NCBI RefSeq assembly: GCF_964340395.1
Contig: NC_135552.1
Coordinates: forward strand, 27,686,181 to 27,750,180
Direction of reading: 5' to 3'
DNA: 64,000 bases
Origin: Glandiceps talaboti
Lineage: Eukaryota > Hemichordata > Enteropneusta > Spengelidae
The position numbers and the translations under genes were made by a program. Shown in pieces: positions 30,591 to 61,897 of the stretch. The notes below the pieces were generated by a model that was not told the origin of the DNA, searched no databases, and saw only the letters and a list, made by a program, of their open reading frames with translations. Numbering within the stretch: position 1 is the stretch's first letter; each line of letters starts with the position of its first letter.

Positions 30591-33500
30591 TTATTTCATT
30601 TCCTGTACGTAGGATTCTGGGAATATTCCAGTATTTCCGCGCACTTCTCCCAACCACCAACCATCACCTTGCTTTTCATGTACGTTGATAATATCACCTG
30701 GAAATAAGAAATATATTGTGGATATCAGTCATGTAATATTTGACATCATTATAGATATTTGGCTGAAAATCGTTATGCTCTCTCTCAAAATGTATTTAGT
30801 AGCTGTGTTTTGTGCAAATGCAAATTTATAAGTGTAATTGCAATACTACAAATATTACTGTATACAAATATGAAAAGTAGTATTCTGTAATCACACTTTT
30901 TTCTAAAATTATGTAACAAAACCAATGAATAGGATATTGTATCACATTTATGCCACACTTAGTATACTTGTACTTCTGGTTTTAATGTTTACTGCACTGT
31001 ATTACTAAAACCATAAAACCACAAACAACGTGAGTAAAGCCAGTCTGTTTATGTGTTGGCCATTTTATTCTCCAGTAATAAGATTAGTTCTTAGCGTTGT
31101 ACTTGTTTCCATTGAGTTTCCCGTTTACTATGATTATGACCAAGGATTCTACAGAGTACACTTATACATCATATTATACACACTTGTATTTATCATGAGT
31201 TCATCATATTATACACACCTGCATCTATCATGAGTTCATATTATACACACCTGTATTTATATGAGTTCATCATATTATACACACCTGTATTTATCATGAG
31301 TTCATCATATTATACACACCTGCATCTATCATGAGTTCATATTATACACACCTGTATTTATCATGAGTTCATATTATACACACCTGTATTTATCATGAGT
31401 TCATATTATACACACCTGTATTTATCATGAGTTCATATCATACACACCTGTATTTATCATGAGTTCATCATATTATACACACCTGTACTTATGAGTTCAT
31501 CATATTATACACACCTGTATTTATCATGAGTTCATATTATACACACTTGTATTTATCATGAGTTCATCATATTATACACACTTGTATTTATCATGAGTTC
31601 ATCATATTATACACACCTGTATTTATCATGAGTTCATATTATACACACCTGTATTTATCATGAGTTCATCATATTATACACACTTGTATTTATCATGAGT
31701 TCATCATATTATACACACCTGTATTTATCATGAGTTCATATTATACACACCTGTATTTATCATGAGTTCATCATATTATACACACTTGTATTTATCATGA
31801 GTTCATCATATTATACACACCTGTATTTATCATGAGTTCATCATATTATACACACCTGTATTTATCATGAGTTCATATTATACACACCTGTATCTATCAT
31901 GAGTTCATATCATACACACCTGTATTTATCATGAGTTCATCATATTATACACACCTGTATTTATCATGAGTACATCATATTATACACACCTGCATTTATC
32001 ATGAGTTCATCATATTATACACACCTGTATTTATCATGAGTTCATCATATTATACACACCTGTATTTATCATGAGTTCATATTATACACACCTGTATTTA
32101 TCATGAGTTCATCATATTATACACACCTGTATTTATCATGAGTTCATCATATTATACACACCTGTATTTATCATGAGTACATCATATTATACACACCTGT
32201 ATTTATCATGAGTTCATATTATACACACCTGTATTTATCATGAGTTCATATTATACACACCTGTGTTTATCATGAGTTCATCATATTATACACACCTGTA
32301 TTTATCATGAGTTCATCCTTCTGAGTCGGTACAAAGTCATACAAAGCTTTACATCGACATACAACTTCACTAGGAAAGTCAGGGTCAAAGTCATCATCTG
32401 ACATAAGATAGAAATGTACATGAATTATCTTTACATGTAAACACATTAATCAGGTTGGTAAAACAGTAATACTACATTCTTGTATCACTAACATGGGTTC
32501 TTTTTACTTATGAGTAACGTTTCCCCTGTTCATGTCGACAGACTTTGTCAAACTATCAGTTTGCTGGCTTTACCACTAGGTGGCGTAGTAAACAATTAGA
32601 ATCCTTGTTCATGGTACAAGTACGTATGTACCGGTATTACTGTAAATGAATTACATAGTGAAAGCAACACACAAAACAAAATAATTAGTAACTCAAAGTG
32701 AATTGCTAGGCACTATCGTCATGGAAACACAATCATTATAATTACAAATTATGTCTTGTTTTCACATGTACAGTTTCAAGTATTGTACCATAATGCTAAT
32801 GTTAGTTGATTGATTTCTTCATACTTGACGTCTATAACAGTGTTCTATAGTTGATTTTCCACTTCCAAGAGATGTATAGTGCAAGACAACATCAATTATG
32901 TTGTTAACTTTAGGCTTGTTTTGTCCTCATTACATTTGAAATAATATTTTTCATTGTGAAATGATGGAAAGACATGTTTACCTCTTTAATTTGAGTGATT
33001 TTTTAAAAGAGACCAAACTCCATAAATGACAGTAAACCTAGGGTAAAGTCAGGTGACAACATCCCCTGAGTAGCGAGTGTAACCCACCCCAATCTCCTAC
33101 TCCCCCACCCCCTCACACTTTCACAATACATGATATAACATGGGGAGATGCACGATACATCTTGGAACTATTAGTATTGTAAGTTATGAGTACCTAAGAC
33201 AAACCTTGTTAGTGTTATACATGTCTTAACAAAGACTATTAGTAATTCTAAGCTACGAGTACCTATTCCATTTGGATTATTACCATAGTACGCTCCATCA
33301 GCTGGGGGTCTGGACATATCACCACCACCTTGTGCCCCTCCAACAGCTCCTCCCCCTCCACCGGTGATTGGGATATTTAGTACACTCTGCTGAAGACCCT
33401 GTCAGGTAAGATGAATTGATGTAGAGGTTTATAGGGTGATGAGAGTAAACACCAAGTACAATGTGAATATATGACAGGTCTTTCACTGAAGAGCTTGGCG

Positions 33501-36500
33501 GTCAAAATTTAAAGAACTTTATCAAAGAACTAACTGTCTGGATAAAATTTTGTTTCAATGATATTTGTTTTGTCTGTTGTTCTACTAACTGTAGTGTTGT
33601 AATTCATCAGACAATATTTAAGCAATAAACCAACCCTGGGGATGGTTTAACAAGAGGTTTTGACCAGTGAACGAAATAAATTAACTTGCTATCATTCATA
33701 CATATATTGAGTTCACTGAATTCAAAACCAACTGGTATACCAGCCTCAGGGGTGGTTTATCGCTATCATATCATACCAGTATCTATATCTATATTATATC
33801 TGGAAAAAAGCGAAAACAGACTCAGCAGACGACAAAGTTAACTATACAAGTAGTATTGGTAAACATCACAACTTGGATGCGTGCCAACTGTACATATATC
33901 ACTGTTTTAGTTTTAGAACAGTTAGTTTGATGTCTAGACCAGTCAGATCCCTCGATTTGCACCATAACGTTTTCTATATATACTCTTCAGCAACTGACTA
34001 CAAATTTGTGCATTGATTGGTATGAGTGTCTTTCTAATACTCCACAATGGATTAATTAAATCTAAAGTAGTTGACATTGTATAATGACATAGTTGAGTTC
34101 AGCTAGCTGTATTGTGGATTCTGTAGTCAATCAATAACCAATATTTTTCATAAATAAACTGGAATCACCTGACATGACATAAAAATTGAAACTTCTCACG
34201 CTAGAAAAAACTATTAAGTTCAATATTTTATGTTAGTTGCACCAGTTTGCTATTGGAGACCATTTTCTTACTATACATTCAGCTATAGAGATAACACTAT
34301 TAGCAATGATTGATTGACTGACGTTACTTACAGATTTATCTTTTTGACTTGTAATATACATGCTAAGTTTATGTTCTGGTTTGGCTTTCCTTTCCATTAC
34401 AGCTATAGTACATTGTAGTTTATATTGACAGGCTGATAGTGTCTCTACCATTGCATCAGCCTGGGGAGAAACAAGACACATACAATGTTTAGAGGTTGTA
34501 GTAGACCAGTGAGGTGAATGTTTAGGGGGTTATTGGAGACCAGTGAGGTGAATGTTTAGGGGGTTACAGGAAACCAGTGAGGTGAATGTTTAGGGGGTTA
34601 CAGGAAACCAGTGAGGTGAATGTTCATAGACACTGGGTTCATACTTAGTAATGAGTTTCTACTCACAGTCAAACATTTCTTGGAAGCAAGTTATACACCC
34701 TGATGATGCTGATGAGATGTCAGTGAACATTTGGGACTTGCTTCCAAGAAAGTTGTCGACTCTGCGAGTAGAAATTCACTACTAAATGTTACAAAACATT
34801 TTGAAAAAGATATATTTAGAACTGAACCACTCACTTGGCGTATTTGTAGAATGGTATCATCCATACCAACATTACTGGTATACTGTGGATTATCGGAGTA
34901 GACACCGGTAAGACGTTGTAAACCTATGACAGTCGAGACACAACAATAATCATTCAAATTACAACAATAAAGACCACAATTGACAGTGATTTTATTGAAA
35001 CTCAAGAACAGGTAACAATGATGAATCAAGAAATTCTTAATTTCAAGTTCAACACTGTCTAACACTCTGGTAGTAGCTGAAAAGAAAAACATCTTTCACT
35101 GAAAAGTAAGTATACTGTTTATCACTCTCGTAATCTCTGTAAAAATATGTCTTTCAAAAGTAAGTACTCATTTACTATACTCTACCTTCTTTGCCCTTGA
35201 CTTCTTTATCTATCATTTGTCCAAGCAGACAGATTTTAGTTTGTATAGATGCACGCCTCCTGTTTGGCTTCATGCTATTGTTCAAGTCTTCTTCATAGCA
35301 GTCCATCAACATCTGTCCGGATACCACTGACCCTGTTCCCTTCTCTGCCGTCACAGCCCGGATATCTGATGGTACATCCATCCTTGATATTGCTGTACCC
35401 ATACTTGTACATGCCTGATATGCAATGTTTTACATATTTGATTAGCAAATGTGATAAGTTCACTATAATTTGAAAGCCCATTTTGTACAATATTGTCTTC
35501 TATATCGATACAGTTGCAACATTGCATGTATCTCACTTTTTTAAGTAAGTCCCAAAACAAAGTTCAACTTGGTTTCAATACTTTTATAATAAATTATATA
35601 CTGTTTTTGTTTGATATGGGAAAACTAGTCCATGCAGTACAAGCCCTTTAGTTGAGATTCCCACCAATATTTTGACCACACATTTAGAAAAGTGTTTTCT
35701 ATGACATGTTTCCCCTCCTCAGTCATTCATTCAGCTATCAATGTATATAAATATAAATTCAATGATGTAATATTTAAAATGACAAGTGAATGTCTAATAA
35801 TGTGTCATTTAAAGTTTTTCTACAGATGATAACATCCTTCTGAACTCCTCAATAATCCCCTTTTCTCAAATTCTCACTCACTTCTGTTAGTTTTGGTCCG
35901 ATGTGTGCCATAAGTGAATTGTATTTATTCAACATTTCTTGTAAGCTCTTTAGTTTTGTTTCTTCCAGAGATTGCATCTGTGTGGCGTACTGTCTCATGT
36001 TCTTCTCAAAGTCGTGTCTTGCCCGTTCAGCAGACACTGTTATATCCATGTACTCTTGACTAGCCTTGGAGGATACTTCTTCTGCCTTCTGAGATTTAGT
36101 TTGTAACTGTAAACAAAATATTGAACATTTTGAGACATATTAACGGGGAACACCACTCCAGGAAATGGACATTATCATAAATTATGGGTTCAGTGGAGAG
36201 AAATTTCATGATTTTATATCACCTACAATTAATTGATTTCTGAGAACATCAAGTTGATCTTGTGCCCTTATACTATATAGGGTATTTTTGGATTGAAATG
36301 TGTGCTTAAACATTTCAGAAACCAATTTATTTGTGTGTGAAAAAAAAACCTTCCAATATACAGATGATTTCATGAATACACTGTCCACAATGATTTGAAA
36401 ACTACTTTGCTGTTTTAACCTGCTATTATTCAATATAATCAAATTGTCATACTACTACTAGAAATAAAACATTTTTGGTACAGACCTGAAATCCAAAATC

Positions 36501-39500: not shown

Positions 39501-42500
39501 TATACTTACTTCTTTCTTGGATTTATTTTGTTCTTCATTAGCAACTTTCATTTGTTTGTAAATTTCGTCCTTCAGTGACTGTCCAAGAGTACTGTGTGTA
39601 GGGTAGCATAGGTAGATTATATGGTTAAAAAAACTACATCATTGCAAATGTTCAACATAATATGTCTGAGGAGGACATTATTTAGCTATTACCGGTATAT
39701 GTATGCAAGTCTTTATCTCAGATAATGTCACATTTACTATCAATGTCATGTAAAGTCAAAGCAAAAAATTTAACTCGTTTGGTGAAATGGAAACGTTATA
39801 TATTGTGTAACAATGTTTTTGATTTATACTCATTGCTTATCAATTCTACTTTTCTCATTTCCTGTTTTTTTTTATGATACATAACATTATGTTATTATTG
39901 TATTGACATGATATAATAATTTTTTTTTTTTAAAGGTTACACTCTTCAAACAATCCTGTTTGCTTTGAACAAATTAAGAGAATTTATTATACAGTAGAGT
40001 ATTGTTATACTTTAGCTTATCTAATGGATTGAAACTTAAATAACATGGACTTCTGCTAAAGATAGTTTTTGCACAACAAATATTTACATATTAATAATGT
40101 ACTCTGATAGTATTATTAGGAATAAATTTTGAATGAAAAATGACAATAAATGGTACATGGGTAGAAAAATGTGAGATAAAATTTGACTGAATGTGATAAA
40201 TAGATGACCCCCCCCCCCCCCCCCCATATCCCCAGTCATGATGCGATAATAATAAAAACAAAAGAAATCTCAGAACTGACCTGTGGAGTTGAGCTTCAGT
40301 GTCAAAATGTGATGCAACTGAGGTCCACGCTGAACACAAAGATCTGCAGGAGTGTAGAAATCAACAGAAATTTGATTTTTTTTTTTTTAATCTAATAAAA
40401 TTCTGATTCTATGAATCCACTATTTCTGTGATTAAATAACACTATAAATATACCTGAATTTCATTACATTTCCCATGATATGCTGTGCATATTTCTATTA
40501 GTATTAGGAGAAAATACTGACTGACTGACTGACTGACTGACTGACTGACTGACTGACTGACTGACTGACTGACTGACTGACTGATTGATTGTTGATTGAT
40601 TTGATCAATTGATTGATTGTTGATTGATTTGATCAATTGATTGATTAAACATTTCAATAGTTTAGGATACTTACCCAAGACAAAAATTTGTTTGTTTGGT
40701 AGCTCTTTGTGATAATTTGGCTAGACTTTTGCCAAATGCAAGTTCCATATCAGCTCTGTAAAGATAAAAATAGTGGTATGACATGGTAATAAATGATTTG
40801 ACAAGTGCTGGGACAGTTGCACTTTGATTACAAGACTTAACTGACTATACAAGCTACAAAACAAATGACAAATGACAATACATGAAATGAGTCTAGTCAT
40901 CAGTTTTAATCAGATTTTAACACCTGTCATTACATTGAGACGACTGTAATGTGTACATTTATATACACTTCCTTTTTGTGATATTTTTATCTGAACTATA
41001 GTATTATAAATAGCTATGACATCATGCAAACTATAAATGAGAATTATCTCTGTATCTGAAGACCTGAACTCTAATATTAAAATAAGCATCTTTACAAAGA
41101 ACAAAATAGTTTATCAAACTGACAATTGTTTTTAGTTTCTATTTAAAGTGGCCATATGGATGAGGATTAGATATTTATTTTGGAAAATCAATGTGAAAAA
41201 ACATATGCCAAGTCCTTGTTTGTAACTCAATAAACTGCAAAAGATTAATAAAATGTGTAAAATGTTTGTTGTTTTATATGTACAATAACAAACCTTTTTA
41301 CACATTTTTTAGTGTTTTGCAGTGAAGTTGAGTTACAAACACTGACTTGGTCTGTGTTGTTTCACATTGATTTTTCAAGTAGGAAGCCATAATAAAATTC
41401 ACATAAATACTCAATCCTCATCCACATGGCCACTTTAAATATGACATATACATTCCTATACATTAACTGATAGACATGTACAAGGATGGTAGCAATATAT
41501 CTGATCTAGTTTGCATTGTTTAACACAGTAATTCTGTCTTACTCTTGTCATTATGTACATATTCACTCTACTAAGCACACTGACTATACTGTAATGGTGA
41601 TTCCATGTACTATCAATACAATATAAAGAATTGTCTATGTAGGGTAGGTGATACAGAAGCCACAATTTATTGCCAAGTATTTTGATCCAGTTCAAAGTTT
41701 AAATTCATTTGTACAGTGGTGTTATCACACATTTCTATTTGTGTAGGAAGGAGATATAGACAGATACTGTGTCTACAAGAGATTTGGCACCCTCGGCAGG
41801 TAAATCTAACAATACATTTGGAACAATCTATAGTACCGGGGTATGGTTCTTCATGATCGTATAAAAGACTGCTCCTTTGTTATAGACCTTTCAACCTTAA
41901 TCACATGGTTGTACAATAATGCTAACAATGTCAGGGAAATCTGGTAACATTTGGACATTTCCCAAAGTACTAGGTCAGTCTAACAATCTATCAGCTGGGG
42001 TCATGGGTCATGACCTAGGTCATTCTGATTGTAATGACTGCTTCTATTTGATTGTACATTCTCTTATCTAAAACTGAATAGCTTTTTGAAAAAAATACAG
42101 TATGTTAAAAACAAAAGAGGGGAAAGCCAGGTAAAATTTGACACTGTCCCAGAGTTATGTTTGAGATTAACTTTGGTGGGGAAATCCCCCCAAAAAGTCT
42201 GGTATAAAACTCGGGTAGATATGTTACCAATCTGATTAAAATCCGATGTAGATGTCGGCTAATCGTTCATTGCTATTTTACCTTCGTTATTTTGCCATAA
42301 TTGACATTCTTGGTAACTACATTTTTTGTACATGTTAACATTTTTTAGCCTGATCGCCTCAGGAGGCGATCGGACTAAAAAATGTAAACATGTACCAAGA
42401 AGGTCAATTCAGGCAAAATAACGAAGGTGAAATAGCAATGACCGATTAGCTGACATCTACGTCGGATTTTAATCAGATTGATATGTTACCTACTTAACTT

Positions 42501-52600: not shown

Positions 52601-55600
52601 CTCTCTATGACGTCATAAAATCCCGTGGTCTAGGTGGGACCGGAAATACCCGAAAACTCTCGAAGTAAATCCGAAGGGAAGTGACTGAAAAAAGGTCATT
52701 TTAAGGTGTTTGCAGACGCTTTTGAAAAGTTTTAAAACCAGAATGCATTTCACAAACATGTAGTCTAGCAAATTAGCGATAGTGAATGTGAGCATTTTGA
52801 ATCACCTTTAAGATTTGCGAAAATGAGCTTCCACACTTGCACACCCCATACCCACAGTACTGCTCAAAATTACAGTTGAAAATTTGACTCTGCAAGATAA
52901 GAATTCTACTTTCAGTTTACCACTCAATTTTCTCAGCAATGGTTTTGCATATTTGTTTTCCAATTCTCAAACCTGAAGTCCATGCTGTCTTGGTATATAT
53001 TACATGTGCTTTCACAGTCTATCTGATGAAGGGGAAACCTAATATTGTTGTACGCAAAAAATAAAATAAAATTATCTACAAAAGGACAATCCTAAATATG
53101 TTGTACATAACAAAATAATGTGCTTTTGTTTTAGAATTGTTACGATACACGCCCCAATCCTGTGGGCTCAGCGAGCGGACGTCCTCTTTCTCACCATTGA
53201 AGTTGAGGACATGAAAAAACCTGATATTAAATTGGATGAGTCCAAACTGAGTATCAAAGGCAAAGGAGGTCACGAGGGAAAAGAATATGTAGTGGATTTA
53301 GAATTTCTCAACGCTGTCAATGTCAAGGTTGGTATTATTAAATGTACTTGCTTGTTAAATGGTTGCTTATTTAATTATTAAGATATGTGTGAATCTATTT
53401 GCAGAGTTTTTACTAAGATCAGGGAATGCCAGTACTATACAGGAAAGAAAAATGTGATAACGCTGACATAGATTCCCCATTCATTTTACTGATGGGGGAA
53501 CCTCAGTAAAATGACTTGGGAACTTGGGTAAATTTTAGTTACTTACAAACCTAATCAAAAACACAGTTTACAAATGTAGTTATCATTTTACTTTGATGTG
53601 GGTATGCAATAGACTGAAAGATCAGCCATTGTGGGCACTCTTCTCATCCCTTCAGCCATTGTGGGCACTCTTCGCATCCCTTCAGCCATTGTGGGCACTC
53701 TCCTTATCCCTTCAGCCATTGTGGGCACTCTCCTTATCCCTTCAGCCATTGTGGGCACTCTTCTCATCCCTTCAGCCACTGTGGGCACTCTTCGCATCCC
53801 TTCAGCCATTGTGGGCACTCTTCTCTTCCCTTCAGCCATTGTGGGCACTCTTCTCATCCCTTCAGCCATTGTGGGCACTCTCCTTATCCCTTCAGCCATT
53901 GTGGGCACTCTTCTCATCCCTTCAGCCATTGTGGGCACTCTCCTTATCCCTTCAGCCATTGTTGGCACTCTTCTCATCCCGTCAGCCATTGTGGGCACTC
54001 TCCTTATCCCTTCAGCCATTGTGGGCACTCTTCTCATCACTTCAGCCATTGTGGGCACGCTTCTCATCCCTTCAGCCATTGTGGGCACTCTTCTCATCCC
54101 TTCAGCCATTGTGGGCACTCTCCTTATCCCTTCAGCCATTGTTGGCACTCTTCTCATCCCGTCAGCCATTGTGGGCACTCTCCTTATCCCTTCAGCCATT
54201 GTGGGCACTCTTCTCATCACTTCAGCCATTGTGGGCACGCTTCTCATCCCTTCAGCCATTGTGGGCACTCTTCTCATCCCTTCAGCCATTGTGGGCACTC
54301 TTCTCATCACTTCAGCCATTGTGGGCACGCTTCTCATCCCTTCAGCCATTGTGGGCACTCTTCTCATCCCTTCAGCCATTGTGGGCACTCTTCTCATCCC
54401 TTCAGCCATTGTGGGCACGCTTCTCTTCCCTTCAGCCATTGTGGGCACTCTCCTTATCCCTTCAGCCATTGTGGGCACTCTTCTCATCCCTTCAGCCATT
54501 GTGGGCACTCTCCTTATCCCTTCAGCCATTGTGAGCACTCTTCTCATCCCTTCAGCCATTGTGGGCACTCTCCTTATCCCTTCAGCCATTGTGGGCACTC
54601 TCCTTATCCCTTCAGCCATTGTGGGCACTCTCCTTATCCCTTCAGCCATTGTGGGCACTCTCCTTATACCTTCAGCCATTGTGGGCACTCTCCTTATCCC
54701 TTCAGCCATTGTGGGCACTCTCCTTATACTTTCAGCCATTGTGGGTACTCTCCTTATACCTTCAGCCATTGTGGACACTCTCCTTATCCCTTCAGCCATT
54801 GTGGACACTCTCCTTATACCTTCAGCCATTGTGGGCACTCTCCTTATACCTTCAACCATTGTGGGCACTCTTCTCATCCCTTCAGCCATTGTGGGCACTC
54901 TCCTTATACCTTCAACCATTGTGGGCACTCTCCTTATACCTTCAACCATTGTGGGCACTCTTCTTATACCTTCAGCCATTGTGAGCACTCTTCTCATCCC
55001 TTCAGCCATTGTGGGCACTCTCCTTATCCCTTCAGCCATTGTGGGCACTCTTCTCATCCCTTCAGCCATTGTGGGCACTCTTCTTATCCCTTCAGCCATT
55101 GTGGGCACTCTCCTTATACCTTCAGCCATTGTGGGTACTCTTCTCATCCCTTTCCACAAGGGGGAAGGGATATAAAGATGCTATCAGTTATACATTGTAC
55201 AGTCTAGGCATGCATTGAAAGCATTCATTTAATATGTATTTGTATCACTTGTCTCCTTGGCACTTTGTTTAATTATGAACTGAAAGCGTACGAAAATGTC
55301 CAATTTTTGGCAGATAAGGTGTAATGTAACAAGTAAAATCACCCATGTTGTGTAATGCAGATTTGCATCTGTACATGCCTACTTGAGTTTTTACAGTTTA
55401 ATTTGTAGCGTTAGATTTGAGTGCAAACCTGGGACGATAACCTCAAAAACAAAAGCTAATGCAGCTACAACCAACCCCTCTTTGCTCTATCTCAGGTATA
55501 TGTCAGGGTGGTTTCATGTCCTTGAAAATGTGAATATATGAAATTGTTCATTCTCTGTTTCTTACAGGACTCTAAATATCAAGTTCTGGCCAGACATATA

Positions 55601-57986
55601 GAATTCTTTATAAAGAAAAAAGAACCTGGTCCCTATTGGGATAGACTAACAAAAGAAAAACTTAAGGTAAGTTCTGGTTTGCTTTCAATATTCAGGACAA
55701 GATGATATACTAGTTATCTTCAAGAATTTATTATTTATCTTTGTTGATGAATTTAACAAGATGGAGGATTCATGAAAACAAAATTATTATGAAATTTGTA
55801 TGATATACATATGTCTCAACAGTTGTGATGTAATGCCTTCAACAACTTAAATGTTTTACTTTCCTCTCATTTTGAGTTGGCAATGATATCTGTACTTCAC
55901 CTTATACATGTAGAGATGAGTTATTGAATTTTGGGGGTAAGGAAAACTAGGGGAAGAGCCATGAAATAAGTTCAGAAAGATAGAATTGTAAATTCTGTCA
56001 CTTGTATTATGATGTCATCAAATAAAACTTAAAACAGTCTGTTTAAAAAAGCTAAAAAGAGGCTACCTTTGGTGTCGGAAGGCATTGGACCCAACATTTC
56101 TTTTATTATTTCAGAAGAACCAGGAACAATCTTTCATATTGGCAAACTTTAAAGAGATATTAAGAACTCTGATATTCAGTGAAATTGATCCTTGAGGCAC
56201 TAAAAGAATTGATAAAACTTTCTATTTTTACCTCTGTTGATTTCTGGCAGTGTCACTGGTTAAAAACAGATTTTGTGAAGAATTGATAAAACTTTCTATT
56301 TTTTCCTCTGTTGATTTCTGGCAGTGTCACTGGTTAAAAACAGATTTTCATAAATGGAAAGATGAGGATGATTCAGAAGATGAAGGTGGTGATAGAAGTC
56401 TTGAAGATGTAAGTATCTTGTTAGTCTTAGGCATAAAACAACAACAAAACTCCCAAAATGACAGGTTTACTGGCAAAGTGCATTCCTGTATTTATTCACA
56501 TTCCCTTGAGTTCCCATTGATTGAATTTCCGTAAAATTTTACAGAAAATATGGGTTGGAAGTTTTCATGTGAAGTTCGTACAAAGTAGTGTGCAGTCTTA
56601 AACTGTTAGTCTGTTTAAGTAAGACTGACTCCTGTGTACAAGTGTAGCAGGTATATTCAAGTATTATATTGATACCTGTCATGTTATCTCAGTATTATGG
56701 AAATCCCCATGGCAACCCTTGTATTAACTATATTATTATTACCTATGTACCAGAAATTACTTGCACTGGTGGTATTTTCACTGCAGTGCAATACATATGT
56801 ACCAGAAATTACTTGCACTGGTGGTATTTTCACTGCAGTGCAATACATATGTACCAGAGATTACTTGCACTGGTGTGCACACCACATACTAGTGGTATTT
56901 TCACTGCAGTGCAATACCAACCTATTTATGCATTCCTGCATGCAAATGAGGATGTGATCATTCATTCATTCATTACACACGAAATTGCGTGATTGCACTG
57001 TATGATTTTTCTGAAATTTGCCATTTCAGATAAACATGTAATAGTAACAGAACCTCATGCCACGGTGACTTTCCGTGTGGGTACTTACAGGTATTTGCAC
57101 TCGAGCTTGCAACTTGCTACGCTTCTGAAAGTACAGGTGCAGAGAACACTACAAGCACTCGTGCAAGTACACCACGCTTACACTCTCATGTCATGAGGTT
57201 GTGTCATATTGATTGAACAATCATTCTTATATTAGAAGTCTTGAGCCAAATACACAGTAACTTGTGATTAATTTTATATAGAAGTACATATTTTGTTAAC
57301 ATAGGGAGAACTACATGTACATCCACATTGTTAACATAGGAAGAATTACATGTACATCTACTTTGTCCTGTTTCAGATGATGTCACAGATGGGAGGTGGT
57401 TTTGATGCAGAAAATATGCCAGACATGGATGATATTGCACCAGATGATAATAATGAACCAGACAGTGATGATGAAGGTACATGCTAAACAACACTTAACA
57501 ATTTTAACCATTCTCATCCATTTTTATGAAACTAATTTTCTCAATAAATTCAATTGCTTACACTTTTGCTGAATATGACTAACTTTTAAAATCAATCTAT
57601 ATACACATTACTATGTTTCTCCATAAATTCAACCACTTATCAATCTATATTTATGTAGCTTCTTACTGACCAGGGTTTCAATCCCACATTCTTCCATTAG
57701 TACTTTATTATCAGTAGAGCCATTATGTTAACATAGGACTATTCTTTCGTTGTACATAAAACACAAAATAAGGTTTAATAGAAATTTCTATTTAAAAACA
57801 AATTCGCTAAAAAGTTTAAATGTGAATTAGGAATAGGGGATTTTGATGTTTTTTGGTGTTAACCATCTTGTTTCTTCATTATTGATAGTAGAACATAGCA
57901 CAAAGATGACTTCCCTAATCTCTTGGATTCCTCCTGATGTTTTAACAATCTTTCTTTCTATTTCAGAACTGCCCGATTTAGAATAG
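49630..57986 (+). CDS. PTGES3: p23 / prostaglandin E synthase 3 HSP90 co-chaperone, six exons, 169 aa
   Basis: Exons: 49630-49643, 53135-53327, 55568-55666, 56325-56408, 57377-57476, 57967-57986. The total is 510 nt and all join in frame. p23 binds and stabilises the ATP-bound closed state of HSP90 in client maturation. The CS domain spans about residues 6-100, with WAQRADVLFLTIEVED and the signature WDRLTKEKLKCHWLKTDF (human WPRLTKERAKLNWLSVDF). The acidic tail is typical: KWKDEDDSEDE, a Met/Asp-rich stretch, and the end PDLE, as in human p23 (160 aa). The start is a five-residue first exon, ATG GCG GGT GAA GG, followed by a consensus GTAAGT. The exon 2 donor (GTTGGT) is weak. Intron 1 holds a 2.4-kb foldback element and intron 2 a 51-copy minisatellite. 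A duplicated acceptor lies 74 bp before exon 4. Confidence 0.96.
50392..52807. mobile_element. 2.4-kb TTAA-flanked foldback element in PTGES3 intron 1
   Basis: The arms 50392 to ~51085 and ~52115 to 52807 are inverted repeats. The outer ~540 bp are nearly identical by eye, with small indels; the inner ~150 bp are more diverged. The ends read AGGTGATTCAAAATGCTCAC outside-in on both sides, bounded by TTAA (50388-50391 and 52808-52811). The ~1-kb centre has no transposase-like frame. The same 60-residue frame appears once on each strand only because the arms match. The TTAA target and AGG end fit a piggyBac-like or Kolobok-like nonautonomous element. Confidence 0.85.
53623..55152. repeat. 30-bp minisatellite, 51 copies, in PTGES3 intron 2
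   Basis: The unit is CAGCCATTGTGGGCACTC followed by TTCTCATCCCTT or TCCTTATCCCTT. Because 30 is divisible by 3 and the unit lacks stops in several frames, it gives open frames of over 500 codons on both strands. These are not genes: they lie in an intron and consist only of a 10-residue repeat. A block of six units (53941-54120) is repeated exactly at 54121-54300. Confidence 0.95.
56207..56348 (+). repeat. 74-bp tandem duplication of the PTGES3 exon 4 acceptor
   Basis: Copy 1 (56207-56274) and copy 2 (56281-56348) differ at about one position. Each holds a T-rich tract, TTTCTGGCAG and the first 24 nt of exon 4. Only copy 2 continues into the rest of the exon. Copy 1 would run into TGA after about 11 codons. 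Confidence 0.95.
56745..56925. repeat. 52-bp repeat, three copies, in PTGES3 intron 4
   Basis: The unit contains ATGTACCAGAAATTACTTGC and GGTATTTTCACTGCAGTGCA. The third copy carries a small insertion (GTGCACACCACATACTA). Confidence 0.85.
57292..57361. repeat. ~35-bp direct duplication upstream of PTGES3 exon 5
   Basis: Two copies of TTGTTAACATAGG(G/A)AGAA(C/T)T and ACATGTACATC, just before the exon 5 acceptor. Confidence 0.8.
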
Positions 57987-60454: not shown

Positions 60455-61897
60455 GCATGTGTACGTACCTGTATGTATGTGATTGTGTATGTACCTACCT
60501 GTATGTATGCGATAGTGTGTATATATAGTGTGTATATGTACCTACCTGTATGTATGCAATAGTGTGTATATGTACCTACCTGTATGTATGTGATTGTGTA
60601 TGTATGTACCTACCTGTATGTATGCGATAGTGTGTATATGTACCTACCTGTATGTATGCGATAGTGTGTATATGTACCTACCTGTATGTATGTGATAGTG
60701 TGTATATGTACCTACCTGTATGTATGCGATAGTGTGTATGTACCTACCTGTATGTATGCAATAGTGTGTATATGTACCTACCTGTATGTATGCGATAGTG
60801 TGTATATGTACCTACCTGTATGTATGTGATAGTGTGTATATGTACCTACCTGTATGTATGCGATAGTGTGTATATGTACCTACCTGTATGTATGCGATAG
60901 TGTGTATATGTACCTACCTGTATGTATGCGATAGTGTGTGTATGTACCAATCTGTATGTATGTGATAGTGTGTATATGTACCTACCTGTATGTATGTGAT
61001 AGTGTGTATATGTACCAATCTGTATGTATGTGATAGTGTGTATATGTACCTACCTGTATGTATGTGATAGTGTGTATATGTACCAATCTGTATGTATGTG
61101 ATAGTGTGTGTATGTACCTACCTGTATGTATGCGATAGTGTGTATATGTACCTACCTGTATGTATGTGATTGTGTATATGTATATGTACCAACCTGTATG
61201 TATGCGATAGTGTGTGTATGTACCTACCTGTATGTATGCAATAGTGTGTTTGTACCTACCTGTATGTATGTGATAGTGTGTATATGTACCTACCTGTATG
61301 TATGCAAGTGTGTTTGTACCTACCTGTATGTATGTGATAGTGTGTATATGTACCTACCTGTATGTATGCAATAGTGTGTATATGTACCTACCTGTATGTA
61401 TGTGATAGTGTGTATATGTACCTACCTGTATGTATGCGATAGTGTGTATATGTACCTACCTGTATGTATGCGATAGTGTGTATATGTACCTACCTGTATG
61501 TATGTGATAGTGTATGTACCTACCTGTATGTATGCGATAGTGTGTATATGTACCTACCTGTATGTATGTGATAGTGTGTATATGTACCAATCTGTATGTA
61601 TGTGATAGTGTGTGTATGTACCTACCTGTATGTATGCGATAGTGTGTATATGTACCTACCTGTATGTATGCGATAGTGTGTATATGTACCTACCTGTATG
61701 TATGTGATTGTGTATGTGTATATGTACCTACCTGTATGTATGTGATAGTGTATGTATGTACCTACCTGTATGTATGTGATAGTGTATGTGTATATGTACC
61801 TACCTGTATGTATGCGATTGTGTATGTACCTACCTGTATGTATGCAATAGTGTGTGTATGTACCTGCCTGTATGTATGCGAGTGTGTATGTGTATGT
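60455..61897. repeat. ~34-bp minisatellite, about 40 copies
   Basis: The unit is TGTACCTACCTGTATGTATG followed by YGATAGTGTGTATA, with units shortened to 26-30 bp in places. On the minus strand each unit contains ACAGGTAGGT. The Tyr/Val/Cys-rich frames across it are artefacts. Confidence 0.95.

Follow-up and report, generated by a model that had tools for sequence, protein, structure and literature searches.

What happens to a gene when the end of one of its exons, splice donor included, has been copied dozens of times into the following intron, and which of the copies is spliced? The question is raised by a minisatellite on the minus strand of the window, that is, of the whole 64-kb stretch of DNA analyzed here. 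This array, at 31167-32317, was found with TRF (period 35, 34.1 copies, score 1882) and split into 34 head-to-tail units, of which 20 are 35 nt, 13 are 32 nt and one is 31 nt long, the innermost having been trimmed manually to 35 nt. Each unit begins with 21 nt from the end of a NOSTRIN-like gene's penultimate coding exon and continues with 11-14 nt of intron. The 21-nt exon-equivalent ATGAACTCATGATAAATACAG is identical in 20 of the 34 units and altered or shortened in 14, and the intron part GTGTGTAT is present in all 34 and GTGTGTATAAT in 32. Unit 1, the outermost, is the exonic copy itself. An earlier note on this DNA had described a minisatellite of about 34 copies made from the gene's own exon-intron junction with the coding copy outermost, and both the TRF count and the splitting into units bear this out. 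The array is beyond chance, as 33 near copies of the 30-mer at the junction lie no more than 2 kb away. A search of the window with Rfam gave 0 matches.

The array-bearing exon (32296-32397, minus strand, 102 nt) was delimited by its AG/GT boundaries, its translation and its SH3 match. Its final base opens a Gly codon that is split by the intron, and it joins in phase 1, at 30697, the last coding exon (30591-30697, minus strand), which carries the stop and the second half of the SH3 domain. Joined, the two exons encode a complete SH3 domain (PF14604, E 8.3e-17), and the sequence matches in the PDB are led by GRB2 (E 7.5e-18), with NOSTRIN in sixth place (2yun, E 2.4e-15). The last intron, which separates them (30698-32295, minus strand), is 1598 nt long, and about 70% of it is array. 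An upstream exon matches FCH with an E value of 2.2e-05 and 25.1 bits, just below the curated cut-off of 27.8, and a middle F-BAR exon (35852-36139) gave weak matches, all below the cut-offs. The exons also align by eye with human NOSTRIN. Based on this alignment and on the SH3, FCH and PDB matches, the assignment of the gene as NOSTRIN-like is well supported.

The reading frame indicates which donor the gene needs. The authentic 5' splice site, CAG/GTGTGT at 32290-32298 on the minus strand (the slash marks the exon end), is the sole donor that joins the last exon in frame, and only this first donor yields an intact SH3 domain; because of the frame, a functional mRNA must use it. Transcripts spliced at any of the 33 inner copies (31178-32263, minus strand), as well as those that retain the intron, read seven extra codons (VYNMMNS) and then reach an in-frame TGA at intron positions +24 to +26 (32270-32272, minus strand). 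It had been claimed that use of an inner copy adds TGA-containing sequence after about ten codons and truncates the SH3 domain; the addition and the truncation hold, and the length is corrected to seven codons. The stop lies 9 nt before the last junction if unit 2 is used, 41 nt if unit 3 is used, 73 nt if unit 4 is used, and farther away for later units. Under the 50-nt rule for NMD, transcripts from units 2 and 3 are predicted to escape because of the 9 and 41 nt and to encode a protein without the SH3 domain, and only transcripts from unit 4 onward would be candidates for NMD.

Can the strength of the first donor account for its use? The GT is intact in all 34 units, 29 of which read CAG/GTGTGT and five CAA/GTGTGT (exon-equivalent last bases at 31786, 31684, 31582, 31547 and 31184), and 28 of the 33 inner donors are the same as the authentic site over nine bases. 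These counts agree with the claims that the inner donors are near-identical and that exactly five units are weakened by an A at position -1. Scored with a human donor matrix, the authentic donor reaches 9.32, the second best of the 11 NOSTRIN donors (one of them, at 36227, uncertain), a score attained by 1.0% of the 8456 GT sites in the window, and its duplex with U1 is predicted at -9.6 kcal/mol. Authentic donors are not stronger than the inner copies. With 28 inner copies that match the NOSTRIN one at all nine bases, the choice of the first donor cannot be a matter of strength and must therefore rest on position or exon context. In a toy competition by strength only, the first donor obtained 3.4% of use, and in a second version with an assumed decay over 100 nt it obtained 28.7%; with shares this low, the silence of the inner copies must come from context. 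Concealment of the inner donors by RNA structure was ruled out: the predicted fold is ordinary (z -0.88), and the predicted accessibilities in 11-nt windows overlap, with 0.0097 for the first donor and a median of 0.0031 for the inner ones, three of which (all CAA units) are more accessible than the first (0.0100, 0.0107 and 0.0129).

How one of several identical 5' splice sites comes to be used is fundamental to exon definition, and the question has usually been approached with a few engineered copies. With 34, 30 and 73 near-identical donors in ordinary genes, the NOSTRIN-like array and the two DCTN2-like arrays amount to an experiment of nature on the selection of the first 5' splice site, and the read-out is clear in all three because inner use meets a stop at once. 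What gives the NOSTRIN-like array its worth is that so many intact decoy donors occur in ordinary genes.

The founding paper on arrays of this kind, the mirages, is reportedly Canestro 2002. In the excerpts of two reports on amphioxus, mirages are minisatellite-like tandem duplications that span exon-intron boundaries, found in globin, Adh/Adh3, TnC and PGBD5 genes, and are reported as leaving the regular mRNA undisturbed (PMC3087553, PMC3902484). As excerpted, the first of these reports names BflGb6 and BflGb9 as the globin mirages, gives unit lengths of 10-72 bp in Adh3 and 150-160 bp in the globins, states that AG/GT splice signals are present in many copies, though not necessarily in each, and describes array lengths that are unstable among haplotypes or somatically (PMC3087553). 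The NOSTRIN-like array is a mirage, a known but little-studied kind of repeat, and one of several locally. Like those of amphioxus, its repeats span an exon-intron boundary, unit 1 holding the exon end and the intron start; its units, at 31-35 nt, have a minisatellite-like length, and many copies keep their splice signals (GT in 34/34, CAG/GT in 29/34). The view of the earlier note that an array across a functional splice site is unusual has to be given up, since the same kind has been published for amphioxus and four more lie within 266 kb. Unlike BflGb6, for which the excerpt gives 6 and 3 units in two haplotypes (PMC3087553), the arrays found here have 34, 30 and 73 donor units, and unlike the amphioxus mirages named in the excerpts they lie in NOSTRIN-like and DCTN2-like genes, with two arrays in one gene.

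Our literature search, in the portions of the papers at hand, brought up nothing named a mirage outside lancelets, the nearest case being the boundary repeats of human segmental duplications (PMC2812944); nothing was found on VNTR units with donors or on competing or duplicated donors. As excerpted, the human internal tandem repeats have units of 30 bp on average, four units in the mean, lie in some cases at exon-intron boundaries and are in some cases said to cause novel introns (PMC2812944). They resemble our arrays in being minisatellites at such boundaries and differ from them in that here up to 73 units are present and no novel intron is evident. Likewise, the NOSTRIN-like array copies splice signals as a tandem duplication across AG/GT does, and unlike an intron-making duplication of that type it lengthens an existing intron from the donor side. 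The minisatellites in intron 1 of an earthworm metallothionein gene are, in the part of the report at hand, not described as spanning a splice site (PMC12783039). In the region surveyed here, GC amounts to 34.6% over 264 kb. Branchiostoma genomes have about 41% GC, so the DNA may come from a different lancelet or from a different phylum. Searches with PF14830 (molluscan haemocyanin) and PF01353 (GFP) produced no match; as the controls for both were likewise without a hit in any genome (0 of 14 for GFP), neither result excludes a clade. If the animal is not a lancelet, these arrays extend mirages beyond lancelets.

The units of the NOSTRIN-like array retain a record of their turnover. They share a mean pairwise identity of 97.2% (substitutions only) and include 11 identical 35-mers and seven identical 32-mers; the former, 11 of the 34 units, are the commonest type, to which unit 1 belongs. 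Identical units are most frequent at lag 3 (9/31 pairs, against 4/33 at lag 1), and because identity peaks there, segmental duplication of about three units is suggested. The likely founding unit appears to have been flanked on both sides by short ATG repeats, and one ATG of the ATGATG is missing from most of the 32-nt units. Substitutions number 15 in 714 exon-equivalent and 2 in 374 intron-equivalent positions; with a Fisher p of 0.068 and units that are not independent, this gives no firm evidence that inner donors are selected for or against. In BflGb6, concerted evolution is reported, in the excerpt, to act inside the cluster and to exclude the boundary units (PMC3087553). Here, homogenization is visible in the 11 identical units and the lag-3 pattern, and such an exclusion is not seen, as unit 1 equals the consensus, in contrast to BflGb6.

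Could the copy number be an assembly artefact, a mis-joined or wrongly expanded repeat? The number comes from one assembly, and one globin mirage was, according to the excerpt, aberrantly assembled in a draft genome (PMC3087553). Against this, the NOSTRIN-like units differ by ordered variants, both flanks of the array are unique sequence, and the assembly reaches chromosome scale, its 590 Mb lying in 47 contigs, of which contig C5 measures 29 Mb, so that we regard an artefact as highly improbable.

Very probably the array is a passive mirage in which the inner donors are mostly silent. A short segment spanning the 5' splice site of the exon would have been duplicated in tandem and would then have expanded into the intron through slippage or unequal exchange. 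The array is tolerated because the outermost copy still gives a proper donor and the extra copies sit within the intron. The working donor is the exon-proximal copy, as the reading frame shows, and the inner donors would stay mostly silent because the splicing machinery defines the exon from its body and its acceptor and picks the proximal donor. Some leakage to inner donors is likely and would give truncated or decayed transcripts.

Is the NOSTRIN-like array alone? In the surveyed region (the window with 100 kb on each side and 2 kb more, 266 kb around the NOSTRIN-like array), four further arrays or duplications lie across junctions, in exons named, by eye against the human sequences, as UBR-like, DCTN2-like and PTGES3-like. 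Two are donor arrays, of 30 and 73 units, in the DCTN2-like gene. The smaller one follows an exon ending in LKDLHQQ (L026:7009-8521, window offset 141009-142521) and is made of 49-bp units, each with about 44 nt of coding exon and GTAAG; the GT is present in 30/30 units, 28 of them AAG/GTAAGG and two AAG/GTAAGA. This exon matches Pfam Dynamitin (E 1.6e-09) and, in the PDB, dynactin subunit 2 (E about 1e-05). The larger one, with 50-bp units, follows an exon ending in AEDVDKIQ (L028:7711-10000 and L029:1-1353, window offset 161711-165353) and has 73 donor positions, 71 reading CAG/GTAAAT and two CAG/ATAAAT; one of the latter adjoins the authentic donor, and the GT is lost there. By comparison with the human protein, this array is probably part of the same DCTN2-like gene. 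Read-through hits a stop inside the first inner unit in three arrays, the NOSTRIN-like one and the two DCTN2-like ones.

The third case is the end of a UBR-like exon with three 28-bp copies of CAG/GTAAGA (L012:775-861, window offset -69225 to -69139), for which PRT6_C was matched at an E value of 5.8e-04, below the cut-off, and the PDB held no relevant match. Its inner donors would add 28 or 56 nt that contain no stop and shift the frame, and a transcript read through in full reaches a stop after 19 codons. The fourth, on the plus strand at 56204-56348, is an acceptor duplication in the PTGES3-like gene, two copies of 74 bp, each with the 3' splice site plus 24 nt from the start of the exon. 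In the upstream copy, whose exon-equivalent begins at 56251, the frame reads CHWLKTDFVKN-stop; in the downstream one, whose exon begins at 56325, it reads CHWLKTDFHKWKDEDD. It is the second junction duplication in the window and independent of the NOSTRIN-like array. The PTGES3-like gene has a CS domain (E 8.7e-09), and its C-terminal exons are without a meaningful Pfam match. An intron of this gene also holds an array of 51 copies of 30 bp (53622-55152), a unit that is a multiple of three, in which long frames are open on both strands.

The recurrence of similar arrangements in DCTN2-like, UBR-like and PTGES3-like genes weighs on the idea that the NOSTRIN-like array is a splicing rheostat, in which regulated or copy-number-dependent use of inner donors gives SH3-less NOSTRIN (units 2-3) or decayed mRNA (units 4 and beyond). 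Such a device would fit donors that all keep their GT and mostly equal the authentic site, an SH3 domain that is truncated upon any inner use, and stop distances of 9, 41, and 73 nt or more that would split the NMD fates. Owing to the recurrence, in 264 kb of which 13.5% is minisatellite (87 loci of period at least 12), the array seems to be a side effect of a genome rich in repeats and not a NOSTRIN device, and we consider a rheostat very improbable. That the length of NOSTRIN or DCTN2 alleles determines what fraction of transcripts is SH3-less, truncated or decayed, with rheostats across many genes, is likewise very improbable; if true, hypervariable minisatellites would create heritable expression variation across many genes of the animal.

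Do such arrays favor junctions at all? Local near copies within 2 kb were found at 2 of the 29 located junctions of the NOSTRIN-like and PTGES3-like genes, a count that leaves aside a NOSTRIN exon of doubtful status whose donor lies near 36227, the donor belonging to the exon that begins at 40755, exons that might lie upstream of 46057, and the first acceptor of PTGES3, compared with 253 of 2000 positions drawn at random from the window and 129 of 615 drawn from inside the two genes. Among 84 minisatellite loci of period at least 15 in the 264 kb, the best donor motif reached p<0.05 against random stretches of equal length in six, and no enrichment was seen over the 84 arrays (KS p 0.23). Four of these six strong-donor arrays (the NOSTRIN-like, the two DCTN2-like and the UBR-like one) are at real exon ends, to be compared with five real junctions among 18 strong GT sites in the two gene spans (P 0.054). 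A preferential founding of arrays on donors is thus unsupported by the junction count, the KS test or the last comparison. All three figures are in line with coincidence, that is, with arrays that land anywhere and overlap some junctions, the splice sites being irrelevant to their origin. This reading bears on origin only and is compatible with a passive mirage, the units remaining donor copies, and it draws on small samples and partly annotated genes; as a rival we give it little probability. Since arrays show no sign of preferring junctions, the notable point is tolerance: arrays across donors survive.

Some further arrays were seen in the surveyed region. The one at -83363 has no exon in sight. 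Two others complete the six strong-donor arrays and lie at no recognized exon end. Of these, the array at 118074-118138 contains no exact copy of its own consensus donor, and a 34-bp array at 60525-61894 carries 35 exact copies of CAG/GTAGGT on the minus strand and is strongly donor-like, with no coding-like frame at its edge. In the NOSTRIN-like gene, an array of 4.2 copies of 34 bp (34484-34624) stops 23 nt short of an exon that begins at 34460; its units contain the branch-point-like motif CTCAC together with pyrimidines, and it may multiply branch points.
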